A stretch of DNA of 64,000 nt from Salinarchaeum sp. IM2453 (GTDB lineage: Archaea; Halobacteriota; Halobacteria; Halobacteriales; Salinarchaeaceae), in contig NZ_CP081183.1 in the NCBI RefSeq assembly GCF_019693215.1, positions 499,226 through 563,225 of the forward strand, given 5' to 3'. Position numbers and translations under genes: made by a program. Shown piece by piece: positions 3,179-36,033 of the stretch. A model generated the notes under the pieces. It saw only the letters and a list, made by a program, of their open reading frames with translations. It was not told where the DNA came from and ran no database searches. Within the stretch, counting starts at the first letter, position 1; every line of letters begins with the position of its first letter.

Positions 3179-3628
3179 CTAATCACGAAGAACGAACTGC
3201 AAAAGCGGTGACAAAAACGCTGAGACTGGTCGCAGGGAGAGATAGGGACGAGCAAGGTACCAAAGCATGACACCGCTGGCACCAATGGTATTGACAACAA
3301 CATCACTAACGAGGAACGAACTGCGATGAGGAACAAAGGCCTGCCCGGCCTCGATTAAGGCTCCATAGCCAGCAGCAAGCCCAATCACAATCAGTGCATG
3401 GCGCCAACGAGGAAGCTGCCAGTGATCAGTTGCATATGCCAGCGAACAGGCAAGCACACAGTATGCAACAAGATGTCGCCAGTAGTTGATCGGAATTGAA
3501 TCCGGCTGTGTGTCATCCACAACGGTCTCTGGAACCGTCAGCAAGGACGAATACAAAATAAAGCCAGCGATAACAAGGACCCCAGCCCATCGGAGCCGAC
3601 GAGAGAACAATGGCAGCGGAACCTGCAT
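3179..3628 (-). CDS. VanZ-like membrane protein (copy 2)
   Basis: Paralogue of the protein at 1541-2035, nearly identical over the membrane helices (for example LPRWRHALIVIGLAAGYGAL). It has 149 residues from the ATG at 3628, which matches the start of the paralogue (MQVPLPLFSRR); an upstream in-frame start at 3697 would only add residues read from transposon sequence. It lacks the Ser/Gly-rich insertion of copy 1 and has a different C-terminal tail, LLQFVLRD. The two copies bracket transposon debris, so the duplication may be tied to element activity. Confidence 0.75.
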   Translation of the reverse strand: MQVPLPLFSRRLRWAGVLVIAGFILYSSLLTVPETVVDDTQPDSIPINYWRHLVAYCVLACSLAYATDHWQLPRWRHALIVIGLAAGYGALIEAGQAFVPHRSSFLVSDVVVNTIGASGVMLWYLARPYLSLRPVSAFLSPLLQFVLRD

Positions 3629-25702: not shown

Positions 25703-25756
25703 ACTGTATCATACTTTTTGATTCAGCATAAAGCTGTCGGCTTCAACCCCGGGGTC

Positions 25757-25812
25757 AAGTCGTTCGAGAATCTTCGATTCTCGTGATCACGAAAACCGGA
25801 GGTTTTCGGACG
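25757..25812. repeat. Structured left-end motif of tnpB element 2
   Basis: Outer arms gtcgttcga and tcggacgac pair, enclosing a gaatc-ttc-gattc hairpin, the palindrome cgtgatcacg, and a second hairpin aaaacc-gga-ggtttt. The fold resembles a three-way junction. Related copies lie at 2217-2285, 3697-3755 and 16860-16925. Confidence 0.65.
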
Positions 25813-25837
25813 ACCCCGGGGCAGTCGCCTTGACGGC

Positions 25838-26238
25838 CTGTACACGTCGTCCTTCATAAAATTCGCGTTGGCTTCGCCGGGATGGCAGACCGTCGTGTCG
25901 TACCCCTGGACGATCTGTTCCATCCCGTGGCGCAGCCACCCCGACAGCGGGAAGGCAGGAATGATCCCACCGGTCTGGTTCTGGGGGTCGTCGTCCTCGT
26001 AGTTGCCATGGCTTGCGTGGTGGCGATCGGTCATGATCGAGTCACCGATCACGAGCAAGTCTGTCTGGATGCGAACGTAGACATCGTGCTGTGCAAGCGT
26101 GCCGGAAAGTTCAAGCGACGGCAATCCCATATGAAGCCCGGTGAACAGCTGTTCGAGTGGCGCAATGACGGCATAATCACCAGTGGCATGCTCATCGCCG
26201 GTCACGTGGAGTCCCCCATCCGTCTTGATCGACTCCAT
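25838..26238 (-). pseudogene. N-terminal part of a RAMP (Cas7-like) protein
   Basis: About 133 residues from the ATG at 26238, which overlaps the previous stop as TGATG. YAVIAPLEQLFTGL.MGLPSL, then DVYVRIQTDLLVIGDS, then GGIIPAFPLSGWLRHGMEQ. The last stretch has the RAMP signature (IP...L.G.LR....E) that Cas7/Csm3-type proteins use in their core. The frame is cut by the left end of tnpB element 2, where the sequence changes to transposon codons, so the C-terminal half is gone. Its operon mates are helicase genes. This matches the style of HRAMP loci but the assignment rests on motif reading only. Confidence 0.5.
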
Positions 26239-27128
26239 CACCGCTCACCTCCACTGGTATCAATCTCGCTCGGATACACCTGCACTGGCACATCCGCGTG
26301 GTCGGTACGTTTGTCACCGGTGAACTCGGCGAGGGGCCCGGTCCACGCAGGCTGTGGGTCACGCCCGACCGCCTGCGTGAACAGACGTGCCCAGACGGGA
26401 CCATCGTCAAGCCGCTCGCTGTCCTGTGGTGCGACCTCAAACAACGACGTGCTACAGACCACAACTGTCAGCAGCTTCGATCGAGAAATCGCCACGAGCA
26501 ACCGCCGGAGATTGAGGATAAACCGTTCCTCACGACGGGCAAACTCCGGATCAGTAACCGTGGCCGACACAACGATGATGTCTCGCTCACCCCCCTGATA
26601 CTGTTCGACCGTGTTGGCTGTGATCTGTGCAGAGAGGAACTGTTCGAGTCGGCCACGCTGGGCGTTGTGGGGCGTGACAACACCGACAGTTGGAACCGCG
26701 TCGTCGGACTTGGCTGTCGGTGGAACAGACTGACTGGTGGTCGTGGGGACATCGGGGCCCTCGCCGAGGGGCCCGGTGGTGCCACCATCAGAGCGGGCTG
26801 TCGATGGAGACGTGTTGATCGCCTGGGTGAGTGCCGTGATCAGCGTGGTCTCGACAGGATTGACCATCTGGTAGCCACGATCATCATAACAGACAAACAC
26901 CAGCGAGTTGTCGCCGCCAAACACTGCCTCCAGCCCAGCGGTATGAGCAACAACAGTTGCTGCCGGGAGTGGCCGGTCGTTCGTGGCTGTTAGCGTGATC
27001 CCATCAGCCCGGTACTGAAACTCGGTGAGCAGACTGGCCAGCTCTGCATCGAACCGATACGATGTGGTGAGTTGCTCGAACTGCAGTGGCGTCGGGCGCA
27101 GTCGGTGAGTATCCTCATCGGCAGCCAT
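26238..27128 (-). CDS. SF1 helicase C-terminal motor domain as a separate ORF
   Basis: 296 residues. After an N-terminal segment (TTSYRFDAELASLL) comes the second RecA-like domain of a DNA2/NAM7-type helicase: VGVVTPHNAQRGRLEQFL, then NTVEQYQGGERDIIVVSATV (motif V region) and LRRLLVAISRSK (motif VI). There is no Walker A here; that is on the upstream ORF, which ends in TGA overlapping this ATG (TGATG). The two proteins probably assemble one motor. GC content looks higher than in the surrounding glycan genes. The C-terminal end carries a GPLAEF stretch encoded by the recurring palindromic motif. Confidence 0.7.
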   Translation of the reverse strand: MAADEDTHRLRPTPLQFEQLTTSYRFDAELASLLTEFQYRADGITLTATNDRPLPAATVVAHTAGLEAVFGGDNSLVFVCYDDRGYQMVNPVETTLITALTQAINTSPSTARSDGGTTGPLGEGPDVPTTTSQSVPPTAKSDDAVPTVGVVTPHNAQRGRLEQFLSAQITANTVEQYQGGERDIIVVSATVTDPEFARREERFILNLRRLLVAISRSKLLTVVVCSTSLFEVAPQDSERLDDGPVWARLFTQAVGRDPQPAWTGPLAEFTGDKRTDHADVPVQVYPSEIDTSGGER

Positions 27129-29576
27129 CACTGGTCACCTCCGGTGCAATCGTGGTCGTCGTTCCTGCTGTGTACCATCGACACGGTGGTCTGATGGGAT
27201 CCGGCCGTTGTTGATCCGGGCTGGGCGGTCGTAGCCAGGTACTGAACATACTCCAGTGCCGACCGGTGGGCCTGCAGGTCGTCGATGGGTTTGCGCCGTG
27301 TCTGTTCCCAGTCGTACTCGGTGACCGTTGCTAATTGCCGGTGATCTCCGACCAGTAACGTCTGTCCGGTCGGCTTGAGTACACTTGTCGACAGGAACAA
27401 CTCGGGGAGATCAAGCATACTGGCTTCATCCAGACAGACCACATCCGCGAGGCCGGGTGGATACCGCATACCAGCCGGCGCACTCGTTCCATCGATTGCT
27501 GCCAATGTCTTGGCGACGGTGTTGATGACCTGATACAGGGTTGGTGGAGTCGCGAATAACAACTGCTGTGAGGCCCCACTGGTAGTCCCGGGGCCCATGG
27601 CGTTGGCCAGCCGGCGGAGCGTGGCGGTGCCGTCCTCGCTGTGATAACCACAGTAGGTGACATCTACATTGGGCATGTCAGTATCAACACGCTCGGCCGT
27701 CGCCGCCGGTGCGGTTGGTAGGACACGAACCAGTTCCAGCTCATCCAGTGTATTGTGTGCTTCCAGCCAGTCATCCAGACAGGCCGCTACACCGGACAGT
27801 GTGGCATCAACAGCCTCATGCGATGGCCCGACAACAAGGCCGGTGAACAACTGATTGTTGCTGCTGCGAGCATACGCCCGGGCAAGCAATGCTGGCGCAA
27901 TGGCACCGCTTGTCTTACCGGTCCCAGGCGGACCCTGCAATGGGACAATCGGGCGATCAATTGCCGCAATGAACTGCCGCTGGGCGTCGTTGGGTGTCAA
28001 GCATTCATCAGTTGTGGTCAGACGTTCACAGAAGGTCGTAATGGCTGCGGGCGCACCAAGCGCAACCGGCGGTAACTGGCCCGACTGCTGGTACGCCTGT
28101 AGGTGTTGCCAGAGGGCGTTGTGCTCGATTGTACCACGACGAAGGGCCCGGTCCGCTTTCGGTGCGCCAAAGTCATCGACCATGGGATCCAGCATGTACA
28201 CGTCGCCGGTGTTGATCTGGACTGGTGGCCGCTGAGCAACGTAGCCATCACGATCGGCCGGTGGCTGCGCTGGATCCTCAAGATTGCTCCCGGTTGGCGT
28301 TTGCCAGCCACAGTGATCAACCCGGAACCGACTGCCATGGCGCTGGAAGCGATGTGGCATGGCCGTCAGGACGACGGTTCCAGTCTCCGGATCGAGGTCG
28401 TCGATAACGACCGGCGGGGAATGTTTGATGTCTTCTGCGGTGTCAATGTTGGCCTCGGGACGGCCAGAGGTGCTACCAATGTCGGCTGTGTCCGGCGTGC
28501 TTGCAAGGCGGGTGAGTACCCGCCAACTGCCGCTACCCGCGCCATTGCTGCCGCGGACCCGGATACGCTGGGCAACCTTGGCAGCCGTCGCTGGGTCGGC
28601 AAACAACGCATCATAAGCCAGTTCGCCGGTGATCGTCAGCGTCCCATCATCTGCAATCGCGTGATCAGTACACCGAATCGGGAACGATCGGCCGCCACGA
28701 ACACGGTCACGGGGACTGGTTCGGTACTGCTTGATCGTCTCGTCCCGCCGGGCACCAGCCTCAATGCACAAGACATCCCGAGCCGCATCGGGCAGCCCGC
28801 CAACGGGCAGTTCAAAGCCATCCAGTTGTGTCACATCAAGTGGCTCCTTTGGGTGATAGACATCTTTGTAGGGAATGGCCTCAACGAGTCGCTGCAGAGC
28901 GTAACTGAGTCGTTCAACAAGATACGCCACATCATCGCGCTTGAGTGGCTGTTTGGTATCATCGGTCCGGTAGTAAAACCGGTTGATTTCCTTGCGATAC
29001 AGCACTCGATGCTCGTCTTCGATTGCCCACTCATCGACAACATCCGGGTGAAGTCGGGGCCGATCATCATCGGGCTGCTGTGGCAGGGCTGCCCAGAGGT
29101 ACTCGACTGGAAACTGGCCGCCGCTGCGCTTGCGAATCCGGTACCAGCCATCAGGATCCGGATTGTCCTGATCAACGGCGTCAGCAGCTGGACCCTCGGC
29201 GAGGGGCCCGCGGCCCACATGCAGGCGGATGCCATCATCGTCGCTGAGATACGGTACCGCGTCACCGAGAAACTGCTCGTGAAAGATCTCTCGTAGCAGC
29301 GGCGCGTCCGGCCGGTGATCCTGTGGATCAAACGTGTTAATCGTCCAGGTTGGGTCGAACTGATCGACAACGCTCAGCAACCCCCGTGAGACCGACGTCA
29401 GCGCAAAATGGTCGTTGATAACCGGCAAGACAGGAGTGACCATCGACTGATCGACACCAGTGTGGCCATCTTTGTGGAGACTACAAAGTTCACGTAACGC
29501 GTGGGCCCGCGAGAGCGCATCGCTATGGCGTTCAAGGCCGTCAATGAGTGCATCCAGTTCGTGATCGCTGTACGTG
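27128..29576 (-). pseudogene. RecB-like nuclease/SF1 helicase gene, 5' end lost to a tnpB insertion
   Basis: From GTC ACT CCT at 29443 the gene reads a long helicase protein, but the frame stays open upstream (YSDHELDALIDGLERHSDAL, LCSLHKDGHTGVDQS) right up to the element end at 29576. Residues around QGPPGTGKTSG are Walker A and VVCLDEASML Walker B; LLVGDHRQLATV is motif III. This is the first RecA domain of a DNA2-like SF1 helicase; the second is on the next ORF. The lost N-terminus probably carried the nuclease domain seen at 33816-34264. GC is high. With the ATG at 29443 a shortened protein could still be made. Confidence 0.7.
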
Positions 29577-29700
29577 TGACATCCTCCTCGCCGTAAACGG
29601 CGAGGCTTCCCGTACCGCAGGTGGGATATTTGCCGGTCTACGATACGACCTGTTCTCTCGTGGTGAACGTCCCGCTTTCGCGGTCGAACAGGTGTACCGA
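29577..29700 (-). ncRNA. Predicted reRNA scaffold of TnpB copy 3
   Basis: The right-end hairpin cctcgccgtaaacggcgagg plus the last part of tnpB. The bases just outside it (cacgtacagcgatcacgaac on the minus strand) belong to the interrupted nuclease-helicase gene and would act as the guide. Scaffold ends are inferred. Confidence 0.4.
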
Positions 29701-30888
29701 GGGCTGTGCCACACAGCCGTTACTCCTATCCTCTCCATGAGGACTCGGAGTTATCTTCTGACGCATATTCTCCGCCCCATTACAATCTGCGTTCCCGACC
29801 AGCTCACACGATGAGCAGACGTACAACCCACGTTTGACACGGTTCGACTTCGTGTCGTCACCACACGAGGAACACGTTTTCGAGGTGTTCCACTCGTTCT
29901 CTTTCAGCACCTCGACACCACGTATCTCGCCTTTGTATTTGAGGTACTGGTAGATGCGGTCGAACGCCCACGTGTGCAGTTTCTTGTTGCCGGTTTTGCC
30001 CCAGTCGGACTGGCGCACGTCTTCGGGCCAACTCACTGCAAGCGTACCAACACCGCGCTCAACACATTCAGTGATAATCGTGTCCGTGAGGACGTGGTAG
30101 AAGTGAGTTTCACGCTCTGCAAGTTTCCTTCGCGCCCACATCGACTTTTCTGACGGGCCGTTCTCACCCTCAGTGTCGTACTCTGATCGCGTAAAGTAGT
30201 GCTTGTCTTCTTTAAGTGAATTGCCGGGGTAAAGAACGTACTCGTCGGGGAAAGCGACCGTGGCGATGTTCTTGATGCCAAGGTCGATCCCTGCCACTCC
30301 GTCGTCTGTCGAGTCGGTGGTTTCGAGGCTGACTTTGCAGACGAAGTGCAGTTCCCACTCGTCACCCGTCCAAACGGCACGAACGTTCTGCACCTTGTTG
30401 ACTTCCGCGAGGTCAACGTCTGGACAGGTCTGGTACTCGCAGAGCAGGAAATCGGAACGGTGTTCCTTCAGGTTCTTCCCCTTTGAGAGTCGGACGCGGT
30501 TGTTTTCGGGGTCGTGTTTGAACCCGTCTGCTTTGAACGTGACCGTACTGCGTAGTCGGTCATCACCGTGTTTGCGGTAGCCGGGCGGATTCGCCTCTGG
30601 GTCTTTCTGCCGCAGGTCGAACCACGACTGGAAAGCATCAGAAAGTTCTTCGATGACTTTCTGACTGGATTGTGCGTTCAAGTCTTTCCAGCACGGTTGG
30701 TTCTTCATATACGCTTTGAGCGTCCCTTCATCTGGGATTTCGCCTGTTGCGTTCCAGATGCGGTCGGCTGTCCAGCGTGCGACGTTCCAGATTTTCGAGG
30801 CAGAGTCTCCGAGCGAATCGAGGCCATCGCAGACCTGTCGCTGGTTCTGGATCGAACCAACGTAGGTGCGAGTGACCTCAATCGCCAT
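29638..30888 (-). CDS. tnpB: TnpB-like protein (IS1341-type), copy 3
   Basis: 416 residues of a different TnpB branch. GIDLGIKNIAT supplies the first Asp, the zinc finger is CSSC/CSSC, and NADCNGAENMRQ holds the last Asp. The middle motif reads GTLAVSWPEDVRQS: Ser stands where most TnpB proteins have the catalytic Glu, with a Glu three residues later in WPED. It may be an altered active site or a shifted motif, as some haloarchaeal branches have. The element's right end lies inside the nuclease-helicase gene. Confidence 0.8.
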   Translation of the reverse strand: MAIEVTRTYVGSIQNQRQVCDGLDSLGDSASKIWNVARWTADRIWNATGEIPDEGTLKAYMKNQPCWKDLNAQSSQKVIEELSDAFQSWFDLRQKDPEANPPGYRKHGDDRLRSTVTFKADGFKHDPENNRVRLSKGKNLKEHRSDFLLCEYQTCPDVDLAEVNKVQNVRAVWTGDEWELHFVCKVSLETTDSTDDGVAGIDLGIKNIATVAFPDEYVLYPGNSLKEDKHYFTRSEYDTEGENGPSEKSMWARRKLAERETHFYHVLTDTIITECVERGVGTLAVSWPEDVRQSDWGKTGNKKLHTWAFDRIYQYLKYKGEIRGVEVLKENEWNTSKTCSSCGDDTKSNRVKRGLYVCSSCELVGNADCNGAENMRQKITPSPHGEDRSNGCVAQPSVHLFDRESGTFTTREQVVS

Positions 30889-33780: not shown

Positions 33781-33815
33781 GTGAACGACGGGATTCTCTC
33801 GCTGCTTAAAGATAG

Positions 33816-34264
33816 ACAGCTTCCTCGCCGAGGGTCCCGCTGAGTGGTGCCTGGTAGAGCAGTATGTACGGCGGATAGTTAGCAGTGCCGGTGAGCGTGC
33901 CGGCCCGATCAACAGCACCGGTGAGTTGTGCACGGCGGCCCCTCGCCGAGTCAGCCCACGTCTCATCAACGTCAATGTCCGGAACTGCAGATTTTGACTG
34001 GTCAGCAAGTTCGGGAGCGATAACCTGTGTCGCGCCGGCAGCTAACGTTTCGATCTGTGTTGCTTCGAATTCTCTGCCTTTGGCCAGCAGGGCAATGTTC
34101 ATCAGTCCAAACGCTTCTTGCCAGTCACGGGCGTTGGCTTCTTCATCAGCGTGGATCCGCTGTTTCAGATACCGGGGGCAACGATCGTGCTCGACGAACT
34201 GGGCGATACCGCTTGGTTCAAACGGTGGGTCGTCGCCTTCCGACTCGTAAGGATGTCCCGTCAT
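33816..34264 (-). pseudogene. N-terminal fragment of the RecB-like nuclease/helicase, copy A
   Basis: About 150 residues from the ATG at 34264. SGIAQFVEHDRCPRYLKQRI is the Cas4/RecB-like N-terminal motif with its first cysteine and a DEXK-type beginning; later AVPDIDVDETWADSARGRR and GTLTGTANYPPYILLYQAP form the start of the nuclease core. The frame meets element sequence at about 33815 (cttaaagatag). The missing rest continues, after the insertions and an unknown deletion, at 29576. A very similar start lies at 35278-35617. Confidence 0.6.
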
Positions 34265-34317
34265 GGAGCGGCCCTCCAATAACGGGTCGGGTGGTTAGCT
34301 AGCGTTACGACGGTCTG

Positions 34318-34386
34318 TCCGGCGAATTGAAGTACCGGTAGAGTGTATAATCGCATGCTTCGGTGGATTCCGAAGCGCGGTCGGAC
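34318..34386. promoter_or_regulatory. Conserved upstream block of nuclease copy A
   Basis: ccggcgaattgaa, then gcatgcttcggtggattcc with a cttcgg/ccgaag hairpin. A matching block lies at 35653-35715 in front of nuclease copy B. It sits between the nuclease start and a divergent HTH gene in both places, suggesting a shared control region. Confidence 0.4.
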
Positions 34387-34548
34387 GTGCTACCACACGT
34401 TCGGCCGGATTTTACTCTCGACCGAGTTCCGCGCTTCTGATTCCTATCTATGATTTGATTACGGACAAGCGTTACTAAAGAACATCTTGGAGAACAACTC
34501 AAAGATTCATAACGAAACACTAAGAAGAGTTGGTTGTAATTTTCTGAT

Positions 34549-34803
34549 GTGGTCAACCAGCAGCACGAACCGTCCGAGTACGAAGAAAGAGTCTTAGAAG
34601 TTCTCAAGGAGGGGCGGGACGACGACCGGCCTTGGGGCTATACGACACCTTCCCGTGTCGCCGAGCGGTTCGATATCCCTCGCCAGCGTATCAACGAAGC
34701 GATCGGCCGACTTGAGGCTGCAGGATGGATAGAACAGGTTGAGGAGAATGGTACTCTAGTTCGAGGATTGTACTCTTTTGTCGACGACCCCCGAGAACAC
34801 TAA
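34549..34803 (+). CDS. Small winged-helix DNA-binding protein
   Basis: 84 residues from a GTG start: EYEERVLEVLKEGRDDDRPW, TPSRVAERFDIPRQRINEAI, GRLEAAGWIEQVEENGTLVR, then GLYSFVDDP. This is a winged helix of the MarR/ArsR size class. It reads away from nuclease copy A across the shared upstream block and could regulate it. It ends at TAA directly before the Orc1/Cdc6 fragment. Confidence 0.6.
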   Translation: MVNQQHEPSEYEERVLEVLKEGRDDDRPWGYTTPSRVAERFDIPRQRINEAIGRLEAAGWIEQVEENGTLVRGLYSFVDDPREH

Positions 34804-35277
34804 TAGCTCGCCAACTCGCAGACAAAATTGAAAGAGACGAAATCCTGCGCTTTGGGATTGCCACAGATGATTACCGAGATATCGTTTGGGAATTCCTCAA
34901 CGGGTTTCACGTAGATGACTTCGTAGTCATCCTGGACGATATCGACAAGCTCGACGACGACGAACTGCTCCGAAGTCTCTTGCGGGCACGCGAGAGGGGG
35001 AAAATAGACGCACACGTCGGTGCAATCTGTATCAGTAACAAGATCGAATACAGAGAGCGTCTCAACGAACGGATCGATTCGAGTCTGCAGGACAACGAGT
35101 TGATTTTCGACCCATACGACGCTGGCCAGCTCCGCGCGATTCTGGAACATCGTGTCGATGCCTTCGAAGGCGACGTGCTGGATGATGGTGTCATCCCGAA
35201 AGTGGCAGCACTCGCTGTAAAGGAACACGGGGATGCACGGAAGGCTGTCGACACGCTCTACGAGGCAGGGCAACTCG
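34804..35277 (+). pseudogene. Fragment of an Orc1/Cdc6 replication initiator
   Basis: One open frame with no start: YRDIVWEFLNGFHVDDFVVI, LDDIDKLDDDELLRSLLRAR (Walker B), AICISNKIEYRERLNERIDS (sensor 1), ELIFDPYDAGQLRAILEHRV, then DDGVIPKVAALAVKEHGDAR and KAVDTLYEAGQLAE (lid). The Walker A part and the C-terminal winged helix are both missing. Both edges are recombination joints: an HTH stop on the left, nuclease copy B on the right. It points to nearby plasmid-type or secondary replication origins. Confidence 0.7.
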
Positions 35278-35617
35278 CCGAGTCCGCCCATATCGTGTCA
35301 ACAGCCATCGCTGGGATTGCAGCCTTCGATTGGTTTGGGAGGTCTGGGCCGATAATCGTCGTTGCGCAAGGAACAAGTGTCTCTATTTGTCTGGCTTCGA
35401 ATTCCTTGCCTTTGCCCAGCAATGTAATGTTCATCAGCCCAAACGCCTCCTGCCAAGCACGGGCACCAGCTTCTGGGTGTGGATCGACATGCTGGTTGAG
35501 CCATCGTGGACATCGATTATGTTCAGCAAACTGGACAAGCGCGCTTGGTGCAGATGATGGTTCATTGCCATAAAGGCCGTCTGGGTGATCGTTAGACACA
35601 ATGTACGCACCTCGCAT
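35278..35617 (-). pseudogene. N-terminal fragment of the RecB-like nuclease/helicase, copy B
   Basis: Starts MRGAYIVSNDHPDGLY and continues ALVQFAEHNRCPRWLNQHVD, EAFGLMNITLLGKGKEFEAR and SKAAIPAMAVDTIWADSA. The same alignment blocks appear in copy A (AEHDRCPRYLKQRI, EAFGLMNIALLAKGREFEAT). It is cut by the Orc1/Cdc6 fragment at 35277. So two paralogous nuclease genes once stood here side by side. Confidence 0.6.
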
Positions 35618-35652
35618 TACACGCATTATCTGAGGTCGATACGATTAGCATG

Positions 35653-35715
35653 CCGGCGAATTGAAATGCGGGTAGGTCAAAGTACGCCATGCTTCGGTTG
35701 TGTTCAAAGCACGGT
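35653..35715. promoter_or_regulatory. Conserved upstream block of nuclease copy B
   Basis: ccggcgaattgaaat, then catgcttcggttgtg and caaagcacggtcg. It aligns with 34318-34386 and likewise lies between a nuclease start and a divergent HTH gene. Confidence 0.4.
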
Positions 35716-35796
35716 CGCCTGCCCCAACAGGCGGCCACTTTTCTGGACTGAAACCCGCGCTTCATAGACATGTATTATCAACGTCTGCTATACGAC

Positions 35797-36033
35797 ATGG
35801 GACTTTATGCAGACATTCTCAGCGATCTCGATCGATATATCCTTGATACCCTTACGGAAGGTCGAGCGACGCCAACATTGATCAAGAAAATCCGCAATGA
35901 TCAAGGGTGGGAATATAGTCGACAATATATCTCCCAACGGCCAAAGAGGTTAGCAGAACACAATCGTGTGGTAAATATACGCGATACTGGAGTATACGAA
36001 CTGAACGACGACCCACAAGTCAGCAATACATAG
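35797..36033 (+). CDS. Small winged-helix DNA-binding protein
   Basis: 78 residues from the ATG at 35797: MGLYADILSDLDRYILDTLT, EGRATPTLIKKIRNDQGWEY, SRQYISQRPKRLAEHNRVVN, then IRDTGVYELNDDP. A winged helix of the common haloarchaeal type. It diverges from nuclease copy B as the gene at 34549 diverges from copy A. An ATG at 35770 is an alternative start. Confidence 0.55.
   Translation: MGLYADILSDLDRYILDTLTEGRATPTLIKKIRNDQGWEYSRQYISQRPKRLAEHNRVVNIRDTGVYELNDDPQVSNT

Follow-up and report, generated by a model that had tools for sequence, protein, structure and literature searches.

The window analysed here is a 64,000-nt stretch of the Salinarchaeum sp. IM2453 genome in which two paralogous nuclease 5' ends on the minus strand, A and B, each face a small plus-strand gene across a common block, an arrangement that the preliminary description had placed correctly (Table 1). 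The two nuclease N-termini are 57% identical over 105 aa and have the motifs EHxRCPR and EAFGLMNIxLLxKGxEFEA in common; the first of these had been given as AEH.RCPR, and its EHxRCPR part is present in both copies, but copy A has VEH in place of AEH. By sequence check and alignment, ccggcgaattgaa and catgcttcggt are both present twice in the window, and the common block is longer than first noted, spanning about 80-87 nt and extending to a CCGCGCTTC. The facing genes had been called winged-helix genes, which Pfam bears out for gene A; gene B alone has no Pfam match and joins the family via its relatives.

Table 1 Features of the two leader copies and the operon behind them (window coordinates).
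Feature	Position	Strand	Basis or remark
Fused ORF: small cargo protein N-terminus + Cas7-like (HRAMP-type) fragment	25723..26241	-	
Second helicase ORF	26238..27131	-	66% identity to second ORF of intact relatives
Nuclease-helicase A continuation	27128..29443	-	Residues 502-1294; AAA_11 helicase
Nuclease-helicase A N-terminal fragment	33806..34264 (reading frame from 34279)	-	tblastn with Halovenus protein; residues 11-150 of intact relative
Leader ORF A, 31 aa	34261..34356	-	Stop overlaps nuclease A ATG (ATGA)
Leader RNA copy A (best reading)	34354..34440	-	Junction P1-P2-P3 + P4; AUG 34354-34356; R1 67.1 bits, R2 67.7 bits
P4 3' strand CCGAAGC, copy A	34357..34363	-	Immediately 5' of AUG
P1 3' strand CCGCGCUUC, copy A	34372..34380	-	GCUUC part doubles as P4 5' strand
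P1 5' strand GAAGCGCGG, copy A	34429..34437	-	Sequence; pairs covary
Divergent winged-helix gene A (family II)	34549..34803	+	Pfam TrmB E 4.5e-7 (above cut-off), MarR_2 4.8e-7
Nuclease copy B N-terminal fragment	35258..35626	-	Residues 11-105; joined to orc1/cdc6 fragment
Leader ORF B, 32 aa	35592..35690	-	Open reading frame
Leader RNA copy B (best reading)	35688..35766	-	AUG 35688-35690; R1 46.3 bits, R2 53.3 bits
Divergent small gene B (family II)	35770..36033	+	Family placement by relatives

The operon in the window is probably the decayed remnant of an HRAMP-like operon that insertion sequences have disrupted. Nuclease A lacks residues 151-501, its match resuming at 29581 beyond TnpB, IS110-type and DDE-type transposase genes, and the nuclease catalytic region is missing from both window copies, B consisting of residues 11-105 only. 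As candidates for a TM0106-type RecB nuclease (PD-(D/E)XK) combined with an SF1 helicase, intact relatives score above the cut-off for AAA_11, just below it for PDDEXK_1 (E 3e-4) and far below it for TIGR03491 (E 3e-4). Residues 9-102 of a Cas7-like protein are found at 25804-26088 within a fused ORF that is cut by another TnpB-like gene, and tblastn finds no match in the window to the Cas5-like gene or the 246-aa gene. The window thus holds the remains of two copies of a module found intact in other genomes, Halovenus carboxidivorans and SHRA6 among them, and this nuclease-helicase subfamily is found as cargo only in these two and the window genome. Within the same region, a sot0042 RNA (RF02656) at 29585-29756 (-) overlaps the TnpB gene 29638-30888 towards its 3' end, and an orc1/cdc6 fragment at 34803-35290 (+; Cdc6 lid, E 3e-16) extends into nuclease copy B. 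In genome G181, G-rich repeats separate the module from an orc1/cdc6-like gene upstream; a plasmid origin element was considered for this adjacency and set aside, the adjacency having been seen at G181 and in the window and not as a general feature.

The preliminary description proposed a test of HTH-protein binding to the block; from its sequence conservation and pairing, the block is best read not as a simple protein-binding site but as minus-strand DNA that encodes a structured 5' leader RNA, what is conserved being mainly a folded leader with covarying helices, the last of which abuts the AUG. RNA was suspected because the window copies vary in sequence yet stay paired. The element is made up of a three-way junction, P1-P2-P3, followed by a hairpin, P4, whose 3' end meets the AUG with which a short leader ORF begins. 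The junction is closed by P1, in which GAAGCGCGG pairs with CCGYGCUUC, and the end of P1 is also the 5' strand of P4, whose 3' strand stops at the AUG. The P2 loop has GAA and the P3 loop is YUGGAR, and the unpaired letters of the P2 loop (GAA) and of the P3-P1 junction (CGA) are conserved at 79-94%. A GCTTC-type word is present in three copies in the element.

A covariance model, R1, built from 19 relatives with the window copies left out, finds both of these copies in a search across the whole 2.66-Mb genome (A, E 1.6e-14; B, E 8e-9) and matches 132 of 392 haloarchaeal genomes of the order (E<=0.01), in 50 of 95 genera and with up to six copies a genome; the exact pattern CATGCTTCG(2-20)AAGCRCGG is found in 52 of the 392. 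In a phylum sample of 196 genomes, not split by order, six had matches, all of them from the same order. The preliminary description had allowed that the similarity might reflect a recent local duplication alone, an explanation ruled out by this distribution together with the differing P2 and P3 lengths of the two copies. Nothing at the element reaches the gathering score in Rfam 15 (window, L171 and 12 loci), and a known RNA family was dropped on this ground. A literature search, with most subscription papers and the original HRAMP paper outside its scope, found the leader nowhere described, and we regard it as a widespread, apparently undescribed family of folded RNA. Among its carriers is pNRC200 of Halobacterium salinarum NRC-1, which has the element together with a divergent winged-helix gene. 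Tandem leader pairs 1.1-1.3 kb apart are present at L248:6001-7345 and L252:4809-6013, one pair in each genome. A CRISPR array in genome G196 (L188:5921-6066) has two identical spacers matching the P4/P1 part of the leader, and the element is therefore treated as foreign.

Two match lists were joined into a set of 143 elements after removal of 7 of 68 rows (CRISPR spacers, three weak matches, one truncated row and one duplicate) and 5 of 87 rows (repeats of the window and L012 and two weak ones). Because this set retains a few duplicates, leader statistics are based on the 132 distinct leaders that have a start codon. Near-identical sequences were omitted when 53 of 57 listed sequences were passed on to the next comparison, and one later comparison used 76 of 89 representatives.

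Covariation strongly supports all four helices. Across 84 distinct rows, 95.4% of P1-P3 cells are paired and 18 of 21 pairs have changes on both sides, in an alignment that was fitted to the same structure; none of 500 shuffles did as well, and slid controls were 27-50% paired. For P4, which the model does not include, 92.0% of cells are paired and five of six pairs show double changes; its innermost counted pair takes all four Watson-Crick forms (GC in 29 rows, UA in 20, CG in 15 and AU in 7). The gap between P4 and the AUG is 0 nt in 118 of the 132 distinct leaders. G-U cells outnumber A-C cells by 90 to 31 on the minus strand, which favours it as the sense strand, since the other strand would not show this excess. 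Two weak rows of A5 were left out of the letter-conservation and G-U counts and kept in the P1-P3 and P4 covariation. An RNA from the plus strand would fold as well, but three features favour the minus strand: the start codon, where the TATA-like stretch lies, and the G-U count.

The surroundings of the element are similarly regular. The first ORF after the leader has a median length of 70 aa, and in 108 of 132 leaders its stop is coupled to the start that follows; a Shine-Dalgarno-like word is found near the AUG in 15 of 132. Family-wide, the element's 5' end is preceded at about 27 nt by a TATA-like box (AT 0.77-0.93 at -29 to -25). By inspection, copy A in the window has no clear TATA box at -27, and with both downstream genes broken as well, the window leader copies may therefore be dead. 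Downstream of the AUG, a hairpin of at least 5 bp is found in 42% of cases versus 21% of shuffles; support for a fifth hairpin is thus only modest, and it is not claimed.

A small divergent gene of one of two families accompanies the element in 128 of the 143 collected loci, at a distance of 28-197 nt (median about 100 nt). The winged helix expected to recur beside the block in other genomes does so in part: family II (winged helix) stands alone in 62 loci, while 65 have only the helical family I and one has both. Family I corresponds to phrog_26393 and is predicted to be helical (model pLDDT 87), with no convincing Pfam relative and no PDB relative for its predicted structure. The repeated module of the preliminary description thus holds as a unit of regulator, block and operon, but its cargo is not always a nuclease-helicase. 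HRAMP-type cargo, comprising Cas7-like, 246-aa and Cas5-like genes, is found in 24-25 of 143 loci, and PADLOC matches the Cas7-like protein to Csm3 (E 9e-5) and the Cas5-like protein to Cmr3 (E 7e-8). Other cargo includes an operon of uncharacterised proteins (19 loci), LAGLIDADG endonucleases (5 loci), HNH proteins and viral early proteins. In the haloviruses BJ1, Humcor1 and HRTV-DL1, the element heads an operon beside a small divergent gene, and passages found by keyword in the papers on these viruses make no mention of such a leader. The annotated valine start of ORF7 in BJ1 (L318:3506-3600), at 3547, falls inside the leader, and the conserved AUG is at 3598-3600. The leader and its divergent small gene thus probably act as a control head for operons of mobile elements and of putative defence.

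HRAMP is said to depend on RNA in its 2019 description. According to PMC8730458, HRAMP is regarded as a separate defence system with CRISPR origins. The suggestion of a defence cassette gains from the HRAMP-type loci and from the Cas7-like fragment in the window operon, but the link is partial. Among 195 genomes, we found 21 Cas7-like genes at least 74% identical to the query, 11 of which have an R1 leader nearby; a twelfth (G052) was added by further search. A leader detectable by R1 is missing from about half of the close Cas7-like operons and from most distant ones, and some have a diverged leader. The order cas7, 246-aa gene, cas5 is kept in all 20 further loci. The window genome itself has an intact Cas7-like HRAMP operon (G000:C1:1487455-1488309), with no R1 leader and a weak R2 match nearby.

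P1 and P4 share nucleotides and therefore cannot form together. The overlap is at least 5 nt in 107 of 132 leaders, and among the 126 of 132 that could be folded under both constraints, P1-forced and P4-forced structures differ by a mean of 1.2 kcal/mol and by no more than 3 kcal/mol in 95, with energies that apply to 37 C and 1 M NaCl rather than to the haloarchaeal cytoplasm. The P1 5' strand and the P4 3' strand have only 1-3 nt in common in 40 of 132 leaders, and competition may therefore be weak there. The computed pairing of the AUG region is 0.60, falling only to 0.47 when the preceding 18 nt are shuffled. In the diverged HRAMP leaders, GAACCC, GAGAGC and GTGAAA each recur as 5' strand and pre-AUG strand with the complement between them. 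In the 3 kb upstream of cas7, 7 of 20 loci have such a 6-mer triple, versus 10 of 100 shuffles; six of the seven are leader-like, one is not, and two loci are identical in sequence. A scan with 5-mer words was uninformative (11 of 20 loci versus 45 of 100 shuffles). As in a riboswitch, the family has a structured, conserved domain in the 5' UTR, the transcript's 5' end being a predicted one, and an alternative pairing over the initiation site, as seen in sequence comparison and computed energies. We consider it fairly likely, on these comparative grounds, that the structured 5' leader RNA works as a translational switch.

Several other explanations were weighed against this reading. Were the block mainly a DNA operator bound by the divergent gene's product, whether winged-helix or family I, GCTTC/GAAGC would be its binding sites and the hairpins a by-product, in keeping with the small divergent gene near the element in 128 of 143 loci and with the three copies of the GCTTC-type word. 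Against this, P2 and P3 covary across many different sequences, P4 abuts the AUG in 118 of 132 leaders, G-U exceeds A-C on one strand (90 vs 31), and two unrelated divergent families accompany the same element, none of which an operator would account for; we judge an operator of this kind quite unlikely. It is also unlikely that the RNA is a structured leader with no specific trigger, whose role lies in stability, in enhancing translation or in sensing temperature or salt, with P4 the only helix that counts. The near-isoenergetic P1 and P4, whose balance temperature or salt could shift, and the lineages with only 3 nt common to both helices are compatible with such an element, but the joint changes of the 5', middle and pre-AUG strands and the conserved GAA loop and CGA junction letters (0.79-0.94) point to a specific partner.

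The HRAMP-type loci also raise the idea that the RNA acts in trans, guiding or scaffolding the HRAMP Cas5/Cas7-like proteins, which are without a CRISPR array of their own, and that its position at the AUG is incidental. This share of the loci (24-25 of 143) and the CRISPR ancestry proposed for HRAMP in PMC8730458 lend it some appeal, but most loci are without a Cas7/Cas5-like gene, viruses have the element without these genes, and abutment of the AUG is near universal. We regard a guide or scaffold role as highly improbable.

For the translational switch, we infer a mechanism in which transcription would start at the 5' end of the element and the leader RNA would fold first as the three-way junction P1-P2-P3. 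The P1 3' strand (CCGYGCUUC) could then re-pair with the pre-AUG strand (GAAGC-AUG) to form P4, such that the AUG region would be open with P1 and closed with P4. A factor that stabilises the junction would turn on translation of the leader ORF, and stop-start coupling would carry this ON state to the cargo behind it. The product of the small divergent gene would most likely bind DNA and regulate the same promoter region. The whole control unit travels on mobile elements and temperate viruses, joined to varied cargo, which in the window would have been an HRAMP-like operon that included a nuclease-helicase and has since been disrupted. More tentatively, we entertain the possibility that these leaders represent a natural class of switch RNA of haloarchaea and their viruses, in which the three-way junction might sense an infection-related or cellular signal and free translation of mobile-element and defence (HRAMP) operons, with an exchangeable control head that includes a divergent repressor. 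A structured leader found in a third of the sampled haloarchaeal genomes, set directly against the start codon and common to viruses, plasmids and putative defence operons, would add a new layer of gene control in archaea, and it could offer a handle on the turning-on of HRAMP operons and temperate haloviruses.

Like translational riboswitches, the element lies in the 5' leader, folds into a junction and can instead form a hairpin at the start codon; unlike them, it is without a known ligand, without an Rfam match and usually without a Shine-Dalgarno sequence, and it is tied to mobile elements. In Haloferax, translation drops when RNA structure hides the AUG, as stated in PMC8241225. The synthetic theophylline riboswitches described there for Haloferax volcanii likewise control translation in a haloarchaeon by AUG masking, but these are engineered, whereas the leader described here is natural and widespread. 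HRAMP operons, as characterised in the accessible text of PMC8730458, resemble the cargo of 24-25 of the 143 leader loci in their Cas7-like, uncharacterised and Cas5-like genes, but the leader is not limited to HRAMP and is not mentioned in that text. In the early regions of BJ1, Humcor1 and HRTV-DL1, an operon is likewise headed by this leader with a small divergent gene; they differ in their viral cargo of SWIM-type and uncharacterised proteins.
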